From: Herbiconiux sp. SALV-R1
Lineage (GTDB): Bacteria; Actinomycetota; Actinomycetes; Actinomycetales; Microbacteriaceae
Direction: 5' to 3'
Length of the DNA: 64,000 nt
NCBI RefSeq assembly: GCF_013113715.1
Contig: NZ_CP053344.1
Location: forward strand, 3,906,001 to 3,970,000
The notes under the pieces are model-generated. The model was not told the origin of the DNA. It saw nothing but the letters and a program-made list of their open reading frames with translations, and searched no databases. Every line of letters begins with the position of its first letter. Within the stretch, counting starts at the first letter, position 1. The position numbers and the translations under genes are program-made. This document shows, piece by piece, positions 7,789 to 51,906 of this stretch.

Positions 7789-8433
7789 TCAGGGTGCGTC
7801 GCCTGGTGCGAGGTCTCCGGGGGCCAGTCCGAGCATCCGTTCCATCACCTGCGCGATGAGCAGCCGCTGACCCCCCGTGCCGCCGCGCAGCACCATGGCC
7901 TGGGCGTTGGCGCCGTCGATCAGCGCGATCACCTGCCTCGCCACCGCGGGTGGGTCGTCGGTCGCCAGGCAGCCGGATGCGACCCCCGCCTCGACGAGGT
8001 CGGTCACCACCGCGTGCCAGGCCGCCATGTGCTCCCGCACCGCTTCGGCGAGCGCCTCGTTGCGCCTGCCGAGACCCCAGGCCTCGACCCAGACCACGGT
8101 CGTCGCGTCGCGCGCCGGGTCGAGCAGGGTGCGGATGAGCGCGGCGAGAGCGGCGACCTCGCCGTCGGCGTGCGCCCCCACGCGCACGGCCGCCAGCAGC
8201 GCGGCGACCTCGTCGAGCTCCGCTCCGACGATCGCCGAGTAGGTGCGGGCGACCAGCGCGTCCATGCTCGGCTCGTAGTGGGCGACGAGGGCCGGGGCCA
8301 CCGCCGCCCGGGCGGCCACGGCTCGCAGCGTGAGGGCGCTGAGCCCCTCCTCGAGGGCGAGTTCGCGCGCGGTGGCGGCGAGCTGCGCGGCCCGCTCGTC
8401 TGCGCTCAGGCGGATGCGCGGGGGTCTTGACAT
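7789..8433 (-). CDS. TetR family transcriptional regulator
   Basis: 214 residues, the normal TetR length. The N-terminal HTH is seen as AQLAATARELALEEGLSALTLRAVAARAAVAPALVAHYEP (about residues 15-55, shortened here to its key parts: LTLRAVAARAAV as the turn-recognition region). The C-terminal ligand-binding helices include VVWVEAWGLGRRNEALAEAVREH and a last helix with ALIDGANAQAMVL. It is divergent from the agmatine deiminase gene and a perfect inverted repeat lies between the two start codons, so it most likely represses both itself and the deiminase-amidase pair. Strong Shine-Dalgarno GGAGGGAT precedes the ATG. Confidence 0.9.
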   Translation of the reverse strand: MSRPPRIRLSADERAAQLAATARELALEEGLSALTLRAVAARAAVAPALVAHYEPSMDALVARTYSAIVGAELDEVAALLAAVRVGAHADGEVAALAALIRTLLDPARDATTVVWVEAWGLGRRNEALAEAVREHMAAWHAVVTDLVEAGVASGCLATDDPPAVARQVIALIDGANAQAMVLRGGTGGQRLLIAQVMERMLGLAPGDLAPGDAP

Positions 8434-8465
8434 GGCGATCCCTCCTTCCGTAGCCTCGGTGCCAT

Positions 8466-8489
8466 CTTATTGATCGCGTGATCAATAAG
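8466..8489. promoter_or_regulatory. Palindromic TetR operator
   Basis: Perfect inverted repeat: left arm CTTATTGATC (8466-8475), 4-base spacer GCGT, right arm GATCAATAAG (8480-8489). It sits between divergent tetR and agmatine deiminase genes, 14 bases before the deiminase ATG and 32 bases before tetR. Arm length and position are typical for a TetR-family dimer operator. Confidence 0.85.
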
Positions 8490-8503
8490 CGAGAGGAGCG
8501 GTG

Positions 8504-9583
8504 ATGACCTGGACGATGCCGGCCGAGTGGGCCCCGCAGGAGCGCATCTGGATGGCGTTCCCGCGCCCCGGCTACACCCTGGGCGACGACCCGGAGTCGG
8601 CCGAGGAGGGCCGCCGGGCCTGGGCCGCCGTGGCCAACGCCGCAGCGGGCTTCGAGCCGGTGACCATGGTGGTCGACCCGAGCTCCCTTGCCGACGCGCG
8701 CCGGCTGCTCTCGGCCGAGATCGAGCTGGTCGAGGCGCCGCTCGACGACTTCTGGATGCGCGACATCGGCCCGAGCTTCGTGCTCGCCGACAACGGCAGG
8801 CTCGGCGCCGTCGACTGGACCTTCAACGGCTGGGGCGCCACCTCGTGGACCACCTGGGACAGGGACTCCCTCATCGGCGAGCGCGTCGGCACCCTCGCCG
8901 GAGCCGAGATCGTCACCTCGGTGCTCGTGAACGAGGGCGGCGGCCTGCACGTCGACGGCGAGGGCACCGTGCTCGTCACCGAGACCGTGCAGCTCGACCC
9001 GTTCCGCAACCCCTACCTCACGAAGGCGCGGGTGGAGGCCGAGCTCCGCCGCACCCTGGGCGCCACCACCGTGGTCTGGCTGCCCCGCGGACTCACCCGC
9101 GACTACCAGGCACCGGGCACCCGCGGCCACGTCGACATGGTCGCCGCCTTCGCCGGCCCCGGCCGGGTGCTGCTGCACTGGCAAGACGACCCCGCGCATC
9201 CCGACTACGGGGTGGTGCGGCAGGTGCGCGCGGTGCTCGAGCAGTCGACGGATGCACGGGGCCGCTCCTTCGAGATCATCGAGCTCCCGGCGCCCACCAC
9301 GCTCCGCGACGCCGAGGGCTTCGTCGACTGGAACTACGCGAACCACCTCGTGGTGAACGGCGGCGTGATCGCCTGCGGCTACGGCGAGCCGGAAGCGGAT
9401 GCGCGGGCGGCGTCGATCCTCGCGGAGGCGTACGGGCGGGAGGTGGTGACCGTCGACGCGCGGCCCATCCTCGAGCGCGGCGGCGGGGTGCACTGCATCA
9501 CGCAGCAGCAGCCCGTGTCGGTTTCTGGGCCGGCATCCGTGTCGGGGCCGGGGTCTTCCCGCGGCGGGCGGGACGTCGCATGA
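8504..9583 (+). CDS. aguA: Agmatine deiminase family protein
   Basis: 359 residues, porphyromonas-type peptidyl-arginine/agmatine deiminase fold. Active-site elements are all present: WMRDIGP with Asp87, NEGGGLHVDG (His149), TRGHVDMVAAF with His209, and GGGVHCITQQQP with the nucleophile Cys331. The family converts agmatine to N-carbamoylputrescine and ammonia. Start ATG 8504 is favoured over the GTG three bases upstream because GAGAGGAG then has good spacing. The C terminus carries a Ser/Pro/Gly tail after the last motif. The stop overlaps the amidase start (ATGA), and expression is probably repressed by the divergent TetR protein. Confidence 0.92.
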   Translation: MTWTMPAEWAPQERIWMAFPRPGYTLGDDPESAEEGRRAWAAVANAAAGFEPVTMVVDPSSLADARRLLSAEIELVEAPLDDFWMRDIGPSFVLADNGRLGAVDWTFNGWGATSWTTWDRDSLIGERVGTLAGAEIVTSVLVNEGGGLHVDGEGTVLVTETVQLDPFRNPYLTKARVEAELRRTLGATTVVWLPRGLTRDYQAPGTRGHVDMVAAFAGPGRVLLHWQDDPAHPDYGVVRQVRAVLEQSTDARGRSFEIIELPAPTTLRDAEGFVDWNYANHLVVNGGVIACGYGEPEADARAASILAEAYGREVVTVDARPILERGGGVHCITQQQPVSVSGPASVSGPGSSRGGRDVA

Positions 9584-11295
9584 GCTTCGACGTCGTGGAG
9601 GCGTCGATCGCCGAGCTGCGGGCGGCGCTCGAGAGCGGCGCGGTGACGAGCGTGGGTCTCGTGGAGGCCTATCGGGCGCGCATCGAGGCCTACGACAGGT
9701 CGGGCATCCGTCTGAACGCGGTGATCGTCGACAACCCCGAGGCCCTCGCCGACGCGCGGGCCTCCGACGCGCGCCGCGCCGCCGGCGCGGTGCTCGGGCC
9801 GCTCGACGGCATCCCCTACACGGCGAAGGACAGCTACCTCGCGAAGGGCCTCACCGCTGCCGCCGGGTCGCCCGCGTTCGAGCACCTCGTCGCTCAGCAC
9901 GACGCCTTCACCATCGAGCGGCTGCGGGCCGGGGGCGCCGTGCTGCTCGGACTCACGAACATGCCCCCCATGGCCAACGGCGGCATGCAGCGTGGGCTCT
10001 ACGGCCGCGCGGAGAGTCCTTACAACGGCGACTACCTCACCGCGGCGTTCGCCTCGGGCTCCTCGAACGGCTCGGGCACCGCCACCGCGGCGAGCTTCGC
10101 CGCGTTCGGGCTCGGCGAGGAGACCTGGTCGTCGGGTCGTGCGCCCGCCTCGAACAACGCGCTGTGCGCCTACACCCCGTCGCGCGGCGTCATCTCGGTG
10201 CGCGGCAACTGGCCGCTCGTGCCCACGATGGACGTCGTGGTGCCGCACACCCGCAGCATGGCCGACCTGCTCGAGGTGCTCGACGTAGTCGTCGCCGACG
10301 ACGAGGAGAGCCGTGGCGACTTCTGGCGGGTGCAGCCGTGGGTTCAGCTGCCGCGTGCCTCGAAGGTGCGGCCGGAGTCGTACCCGGCGCTCCTCGACGA
10401 CCCGCTGCTGCTCGCCGGCCTGCGGCTCGGCGTGCCGCGCATGTACGTGAACGCCGACCCCGAGGCGGGCACGGGGGAGAAGCCGGGGATCGGGGGGCCG
10501 ACGGGGCAGCGCATCCGCACCCGCGCATCCGTCATGGAGCTCTGGGAGGCGGCGCGACGCGACCTCGAGCGGGCAGGGGCCGAGGTGGTGCCGTGCGACT
10601 TCCCCGTGGTGTCGAACTACGAGGGCGACCGCGCCGGCGCGCCCACCGTGTTCACGCGGGGAGTCGTGCCGCCGGAGTTCTTCGAGCGGGAGCTCTGGGA
10701 GCTGTCGATGTGGGCGTGGAACGACTTCCTCGCCGCCAACGGCGACCCGGCCCTCGACCGGCTGGCCGACGTCGACGGGTCGCGCATCTTCCCGCATCCA
10801 CCTGGCGCGCTGCCCGACCGCTACGGCGACTTCGACTTCGATCTCGCGCTCTACGCCGAGCGGGCCCGCCGCGAGGGGATCATGCAGCTCGACGAGATAC
10901 CGGGGCTCGCCGAGGGGTTACTCGGGCTCGAAGAGACCCGGCGGATCGACCTGGAGGACTGGCTTGCAGGGAACGGCTTCGACGCCGTGGTCTTCCCCGC
11001 CGTCGCCGATGTGGGCGCCGCCGACGCCGACGTGAACGAGCTGTCGGCCGAGCGCGCCTGGCAGAACGGGGTGTGGGTCGCGAACGGCAACCTCGTGCCG
11101 CGGCACCTGGGCATCCCGACCGTCACCGTGCCGATGGGCACCATGGCCGACATCGGCATGCCGGTCGGACTCACCTTCGCCGGCGCTGCCTACTCCGACA
11201 CCGCGTTGCTGCGCCTCGCCGCCGCCTTCGAGGCGCTCGCGCCACGGCGCACGGTGCCCCCGCGCACTCCCGCCCTTGGGGGTCGCGCGGGCTGA
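9580..11295 (+). CDS. Amidase-signature family enzyme with atypical signature
   Basis: 571 residues, longer than the common 450-500. The catalytic lysine is Lys83 in GIPYTAKDSY, and the Gly/Ser-rich stretch FASGSSNGSGTA (about 158-169) supplies the cis-serine. The nucleophile block reads GEETWSSGRAPA (179-190) instead of the canonical GTDTGGSIRxPA, so Ser185 is the likely nucleophile but the usual oxyanion-hole glycines are replaced by Trp-Ser. Translationally coupled to agmatine deiminase, it might hydrolyse N-carbamoylputrescine or another amide of that pathway; this role is inference. C-terminal VPMGTMADIGMPVGLTFAG is the normal amidase end. Confidence 0.85.
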   Translation: MSFDVVEASIAELRAALESGAVTSVGLVEAYRARIEAYDRSGIRLNAVIVDNPEALADARASDARRAAGAVLGPLDGIPYTAKDSYLAKGLTAAAGSPAFEHLVAQHDAFTIERLRAGGAVLLGLTNMPPMANGGMQRGLYGRAESPYNGDYLTAAFASGSSNGSGTATAASFAAFGLGEETWSSGRAPASNNALCAYTPSRGVISVRGNWPLVPTMDVVVPHTRSMADLLEVLDVVVADDEESRGDFWRVQPWVQLPRASKVRPESYPALLDDPLLLAGLRLGVPRMYVNADPEAGTGEKPGIGGPTGQRIRTRASVMELWEAARRDLERAGAEVVPCDFPVVSNYEGDRAGAPTVFTRGVVPPEFFERELWELSMWAWNDFLAANGDPALDRLADVDGSRIFPHPPGALPDRYGDFDFDLALYAERARREGIMQLDEIPGLAEGLLGLEETRRIDLEDWLAGNGFDAVVFPAVADVGAADADVNELSAERAWQNGVWVANGNLVPRHLGIPTVTVPMGTMADIGMPVGLTFAGAAYSDTALLRLAAAFEALAPRRTVPPRTPALGGRAG

Positions 11296-51716: not shown

Positions 51717-51790
51717 GGGGCTATAGCTCAGGCGGTTAGAGCGCTTCGCTGATAACGAAGAGGTCCAAGGTTCAAGTCCTTGTAGCCCCA
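51717..51790 (+). tRNA. ileT: tRNA-Ile (GAT anticodon)
   Basis: 74 nucleotides with a full cloverleaf: acceptor GGGGCTA/TAGCCCC, D-arm GCTCAGGCGGTTAGAGC, anticodon GAT at 51751-51753, T-arm GGTTCAAGTCC. CCA is not encoded in full (ends CCCCA then CGA). Confidence 0.97.
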
Positions 51791-51833: not shown

Positions 51834-51906
51834 GGGGCCTTAGCTCAGTTGGTAGAGCGCCTGCTTTGCAAGCAGGATGTCGGGAGTTCGATTCTCCCAG
51901 GCTCCA
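51834..51906 (+). tRNA. alaT: tRNA-Ala (TGC anticodon)
   Basis: 73 nucleotides: acceptor GGGGCCT/AGGCTCC with one G-T pair, D-arm GCTCAGTTGGTAGAGC, anticodon TGC at 51867-51869, T-arm GAGTTCGATTCTC. Forms a pair with the tRNA-Ile 43 bases upstream; no rRNA follows. Confidence 0.97.

Follow-up and report, generated by a model that had tools for sequence, protein, structure and literature searches.

A predicted TetR-repressed agmatine operon in Herbiconiux sp. SALV-R1 and the exchange of AguY with AguB-like nitrilases among its relatives

The 64,000-base stretch of Herbiconiux sp. SALV-R1 analyzed here (hereafter the window; positions 3,906,001 to 3,970,000 of contig NZ_CP053344.1) carries aguA, encoding an agmatine deiminase family protein, followed by aguY, encoding an amidase-signature enzyme, with a divergently oriented tetR gene in front of the pair. 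The best explanation of this locus, to which a probability of roughly 0.87 was assigned, is a catabolic agmatine operon that is repressed by TetR and runs through AguA and AguY. The TetR protein would sit on a palindrome between the divergent genes and block aguA-aguY, and probably tetR as well, until its release by agmatine or N-carbamoylputrescine. N-carbamoylputrescine would be hydrolyzed to putrescine by AguY, an amidase of the Ser-cisSer-Lys type that has no relationship to the nitrilase AguB, and putrescine would then be oxidized by an unlinked putrescine oxidase.

The amidase matched NF005127/PRK06565 at 1034.4 bits, compared to a cut-off of 575, and residues K83, S161, S162, and S185 were kept in 157/157 AguY-family rows; K83, S161/S162, and S185 are presumably the Ser-cisSer-Lys triad of amidase-signature enzymes. 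AguY was named by Li et al. (2025; PMC12283126) as a family of non-nitrilase N-carbamoylputrescine amidohydrolases. That paper reports assays in which AguY from Shewanella oneidensis and Microterricola gilva converted N-carbamoylputrescine to putrescine with an efficiency equal to that of nitrilase AguB, a low Km of the M. gilva enzyme for this substrate, and adjacency of aguY to aguA in Actinomycetota and Proteobacteria. By family score, the window amidase is predicted to be AguY, an N-carbamoylputrescine amidohydrolase, the reaction being known from homologs. The original prediction had suggested, as one of two alternatives, that an amidase-signature enzyme in the place of AguB might form an alternative agmatine-to-putrescine route; this idea is correct, as the locus matches the AguA-AguY pathway and the amidase exceeds the family cut-off, but both the pair and the AguY reaction were already published (PMC12283126). 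The published pathway and the window are alike in amidase family, gene order, and adjacency, and one of the assayed enzymes also comes from the Microbacteriaceae, to which M. gilva belongs by taxonomy check; however, the Figure 2 legend of that paper names a LysR-type regulator, whereas the window has TetR. A term search of its main text returned no mention of TetR, operator, repressor, palindrome, or putrescine oxidase, and the papers listed in literature searches (the top 20 of 45 for AguY) included no other AguY paper and, by title, none on the TetR regulon or the catabolic route. A second NF005127 protein is encoded in the window's genome (G000:C1:3517764-3519419, L117; 696 bits, 54% identical), not beside aguA; L117 and seven other rows form a separate branch in a quick tree, and several unpaired AguY-family rows have Val for Trp in the EETWSSGR motif.

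Genome neighborhoods were compared in a sample of 249 genomes of the window's family, which is probably the Microbacteriaceae. An NF005127 match over the cut-off was present in 103 of these genomes and an aguA match in 132. From 138 aguA and 116 amidase places, 53 aguA-aguY pairs within 400 bases were obtained, spread over 52 genomes (one genome with two), and in each of them aguA precedes aguY on a common strand; this comparison, proposed as a check on the original prediction, came out in its favor, with order and strand constant. For the pair count, split matches were merged by coordinates (G248, G108, G069, and G118), and weak or fragmentary aguA rows (G198:C77, G007, G113, G108:C2:1371108, and G239:C31) and amidase rows that fell far short of the cut-off were left out. 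Among named loci, which are the best 80 of at least 596 pattern matches in a species-level collection, aguA lay directly upstream of aguY in 35 (e.g., Arthrobacter, Agromyces, Leifsonia, Microbacterium, Kocuria, and Aeromonas) and downstream of it in two mycobacterial loci; no aguA above 150 bits was found in the stretch covered at 43 of them, mostly Pseudomonas and some Brevibacterium. Three loci (L090, L091, and L092) have a long gene (~960-1050 amino acids) between aguY and aguA that reads by eye as a phosphotransferase plus class III aminotransferase, and the fused enzyme might process the amine product further. A different AguA type, ~40% identical, stands beside oligopeptide-type ABC transporter genes (named by eye) at L088, L093, and L094, and precedes an aguY at L088 and L093. 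The C-terminal part of aguA that encodes the catalytic Cys appears frame-shifted at L072 compared to homologs, which may reflect a sequencing error or a broken gene.

The TetR protein matched PF00440 (1.2e-7) and PF13977, a BetI-type C-terminal domain (6.3e-14), and scored below all NCBIfam cut-offs listed. The perfect inverted repeat originally claimed between tetR and aguA is present (Table 1), with arms of 10 bases each that are 100% complementary and a spacer of 4 bases. Searched with up to three mismatches, the 24-base operator pattern had its sole site in the window here and none in 100 dinucleotide shuffles; furthermore, the core TTGATC-N4-GATCAA occurs once in the 4,522,361-base genome, at this locus. 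A TetR homolog above 90 bits was oriented divergently to the aguA operon at 37 of the 53 adjacent loci, some with one gene between, and 30 of these also had the site with at most one mismatch. No adjacent locus had the site only, and the seven with TetR only carry a degenerate palindrome (2-3 mismatches) in the corresponding gap, such as TTGAGC-N4-GCTCAA at L038, where both arms are changed together. Of the 80 aguA places that have no aguY next to them, 78 were scored: both elements were present at 8, the site only at 3, TetR only at 0, and neither at 67; the corresponding aguY places without adjacent aguA (20 of 59) had the site only at 1 and neither at 19. Within the best 80 named loci, the site was present in 17/17 with TetR above 60 bits, and one more site (L159) was unlinked to TetR. 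Altogether, 51 exact and 8 one-mismatch sites were counted in 2.57 Mb of loci, compared to 0 + 0 for the reversed pattern and 0 + 1, 0 + 1, 0 + 0, and 1 + 6 for four other palindromes, and 56 of the 59 sites stand in front of an operon gene (exceptions: L044, L084, and L159). At L089, aguY and aguA are 3.5 kb apart, each with its own site, and at L121 a site precedes aguY, the aguA of the same genome lying with tetR on another contig (L102); these placements tie aguA and aguY to one regulator. Because the palindrome is conserved upstream of homologous operons, it is not a product of chance, and it is predicted to be the TetR operator, with the tetR product as the probable local repressor of the operon.

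The window TetR has the marks of an AguR-type repressor: it belongs to the TetR family, adjoins the putative agmatine operon, and has a conserved operator. In P. aeruginosa, the TetR protein AguR leaves the aguBA promoter in response to agmatine (PMC4287709). Both systems have a TetR repressor over genes for agmatine deiminase and an N-carbamoylputrescine amidohydrolase, although in the window we infer the repression; the second enzyme is the nitrilase AguB in P. aeruginosa but AguY in the window, and the TetR likeness is at family level. Comparison with Pseudomonas aguR loci was unproductive. AguB was over its cut-off in two of three Pseudomonas genomes, no tetR-like open reading frame (ORF) was seen by eye in 3.8 kb at two Pseudomonas aguA-aguB loci (L228 and L229), and an operator search of L229 only (L228 was not searched) found none better than chance.

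Within the operon, the 4-base overlap of aguA and the amidase gene described in the original prediction was found as ATGA, and translational coupling of the two genes through it is expected. The ATG is favored as the aguA start because of the AGGAG ahead of it, and a consensus scan of 8380-8560 found no sigma-70-type promoter.

Table 1. Features of the tetR-aguA-aguY locus, and other genes noted in the window (window positions)
Feature	Positions	Strand	Remarks
tetR	7789..8433	-	ORF, 214 amino acids; divergent from aguA
Inverted repeat, probable TetR operator	8466..8489		Arms 8466-8475 / 8480-8489; perfect palindrome CTTATTGATC-N4-GATCAATAAG
AGGAG, probable ribosome-binding site for aguA	8494..8498	+	Read from sequence; ATG 8504 comes 5 bases later
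aguA, agmatine deiminase family (PF04371)	8501..9583	+	GTG 8501 possible as start, ATG 8504 more likely
aguY, amidase-signature gene (NF005127/PRK06565)	9580..11295	+	ATG at 9580
ATGA common to aguA stop and aguY start	9580..9583	+	Read from sequence
tRNA gene	51717..51790	+	Rfam
tRNA gene, neighboring the previous one	51834..51906	+	Rfam

Among the aguA places that lack an adjacent aguY, 8 of the first 20 have a nitrilase gene starting just upstream of aguA. In the one sequence tested (L106), the best NCBIfam model for this nitrilase was AguB, at 202 bits and below the cut-off of 410. The best solved match of the nitrilase was a plant N-carbamoylputrescine amidohydrolase. When counted over 78 of the 80 such places (two G142 places and a repeat of G033, L276, were left out), an AguB-like nitrilase stood beside aguA at 28 of 35 places in genomes without AguY (27 within 1.5 kb and L246 at 1.6 kb) and at 0 of 41 places whose genome has AguY over the cut-off elsewhere; it was likewise beside aguA at 0 of the 53 adjacent aguA-aguY loci. 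Two genomes have an AguY below the cut-off (489 and 548 bits), one with a nitrilase beside aguA (G214) and one without, and if the 489-bit protein of G214 functions as AguY, this genome is an exception to the exchange. The operator was found at 10 nitrilase loci (L097, L098, L100, L105, L106, L234, L235, L237, L239, and L240), seven of them with TetR above 90 bits. Operons in the order tetR, AguB-like nitrilase, aguA (L097, L098, L100, L106, L234, L235, and L240) resemble the window in TetR homolog, operator, and AguA type; however, their nitrilase gene lies upstream of aguA, whereas aguY lies downstream in the window. With the nitrilase sought beside aguA only, and in related genomes whose events are not independent, these counts indicate that two unrelated hydrolases replace each other, partly under the same repressor and operator. 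On balance, we lean towards a dedicated TetR regulon for agmatine in Microbacteriaceae and Micrococcaceae that uses a single conserved operator, YTRTTGATC-N4-GATCAAYA, and in which repressor, operator, and AguA would be constant, the amine-binding loop of AguA rebuilt, and AguB and AguY exchanged strictly, a genome keeping one or the other. The common repressor site and the swap between the two unrelated enzymes add modestly to the published pathway.

A nitrilase-type AguB under the same control elsewhere in the genome, which the original prediction had named as evidence against it, was not found in the window's genome. The best candidate, nitrilase L001 (G000:C1:2248488-2249312), reached 254 bits against the TIGR03381 cut-off of 410, and it is not under the same control because the genome has only one TetR site. 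L001 is ambiguous by score, as its 254 bits exceed the score of the aguA-adjacent nitrilase of L106 (202 bits) and AguB activity is possible on score alone, and its best solved matches, CG3027 and N-carbamoylputrescine amidohydrolase, are nearly level. Because it directly adjoins a dihydropyrimidinase gene (543.7 bits; cut-off 393.25), L001 is read as probably a beta-ureidopropionase of reductive pyrimidine degradation; given this neighbor, and an operator core found nowhere else in the genome, L001 was rejected as a hidden AguB.

Additional genes in the operons of relatives bear on the direction of the pathway. A flavin amine oxidase gene, whose closest solved structures are putrescine oxidases, lies between tetR and aguA at L070, L071, and L075, and the window's genome encodes a 79%-identical homolog of that oxidase, unlinked to the operon. 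An NCS1-like permease gene occupies the same position at L046, L057, L066, L069, and L072 (71 bits against ncs1, below the cut-off, in the one sequence tested). The unlinked putrescine oxidase, the oxidase and permease genes in relatives' operons, and the lack of an arginine decarboxylase of the two families searched suggest a catabolic direction. Arthrobacter sp. Rue61a uses agmatine as carbon and as nitrogen source, though its genome pathway was called incomplete (PMC3534580).

Several findings weigh against a TetR-repressed catabolic agmatine operon. Neither a TetR homolog nor the site was present in 16 of the 53 adjacent loci. No AguB-like nitrilase stood beside aguA at 7 of the 35 places in AguY-less genomes, which means that there are other second steps or that some were overlooked. 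The sole arginase-family protein of the window's genome scored below both arginase and agmatinase cut-offs, and an agmatinase bypass through it is possible. The decarboxylase search (no PF01276 match in the genome; lysA as the sole PF02784 match) did not take in pyruvoyl-type arginine decarboxylases, and the AguA proteins expressed in PMC12283126 came from P. aeruginosa and E. faecalis, not from this clade. The aguA product, the only PF04371 match in the genome (349 bits), reached 287.9 bits against the TIGR03380 equivalog, below the cut-off of 381.8, and is filed as agmatine deiminase family only. Moreover, Gly206 occupies the column of MtAIH Asp220, the residue that contacts the agmatine amine (PMC6447857), in a loop of different length, and 79 of 83 rows, to which a few loci contribute twice, have Gly in this column. 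Because of this score and this Gly, agmatine as the AguA substrate is not certain. AguA might deiminate another guanidino compound (e.g., a guanidino acid or a substituted guanidine), with AguY acting on the matching carbamoyl compound and agmatine at best a side substrate, and an Arg two residues before the catalytic His in 41 of 83 rows also fits such a substrate. This alternative is nevertheless quite unlikely, as in relatives this AguA type also occurs with an AguB-like nitrilase as its neighbor, the Km of M. gilva AguY for N-carbamoylputrescine is low (PMC12283126), and a putrescine oxidase-like gene is in the operon at three loci. The AguA loop is longer than that of MtAIH and has acidic residues in many rows (YDDFGT), and another loop residue may stand in for Asp220 in the amine contact; the conserved Cys, His, Asp, and Glu of the PAD_porph domain are present (C332, H210, D212, E145, and D88). 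We infer that agmatine is the substrate of the window AguA. A deviating AguA pocket was also considered as a mark of AguY pairing and rejected, as the Gly occurs regardless of partner, in AguA beside AguY, beside AguB-like nitrilase, or unpaired.

It is unlikely that these two reactions make putrescine from arginine instead of breaking down imported agmatine. For S. oneidensis, which has an arginine decarboxylase, a biosynthetic role is ascribed to AguA-AguY (PMC12283126). For the window's genome, the decarboxylase result given above, the TetR neighbor, and the putrescine oxidase-like and permease genes in relatives' operons argue for breakdown. Least probable, at very long odds, is that the amidase is an antibacterial Tse8-like protein or some other amidase that neighbors aguA incidentally. 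Tse8 is its closest solved structure by sequence (PDB 6te4, 887 bits); however, Tse8 is a secreted effector encoded beside an immunity gene and not beside aguA, and it derived from AguY, the published tree nesting it among AguY proteins (PMC12283126), whereas the window gene sits in the predicted agmatine operon. In addition, order and strand are constant in 53/53 pairs, AguY and the AguB-like nitrilase exclude each other, and the window row falls outside the Pseudomonas/Aeromonas group in a quick tree of 82 of the 157 rows.

A TetR-controlled AguA-AguY operon would assign a specific repressor and operator, both open to testing, to an alternative polyamine enzyme that was described only recently. 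It is a possible explanation for growth on agmatine by an actinobacterium with a seemingly incomplete pathway, such as Arthrobacter sp. Rue61a, should that strain encode AguY, and it supplies a metabolic background for the protein family that gave rise to the effector Tse8. With AguB-like nitrilase and AguY exchanged among relatives, the locus would also represent a clean natural case of non-homologous enzymes swapped in one pathway, partly under one operator.

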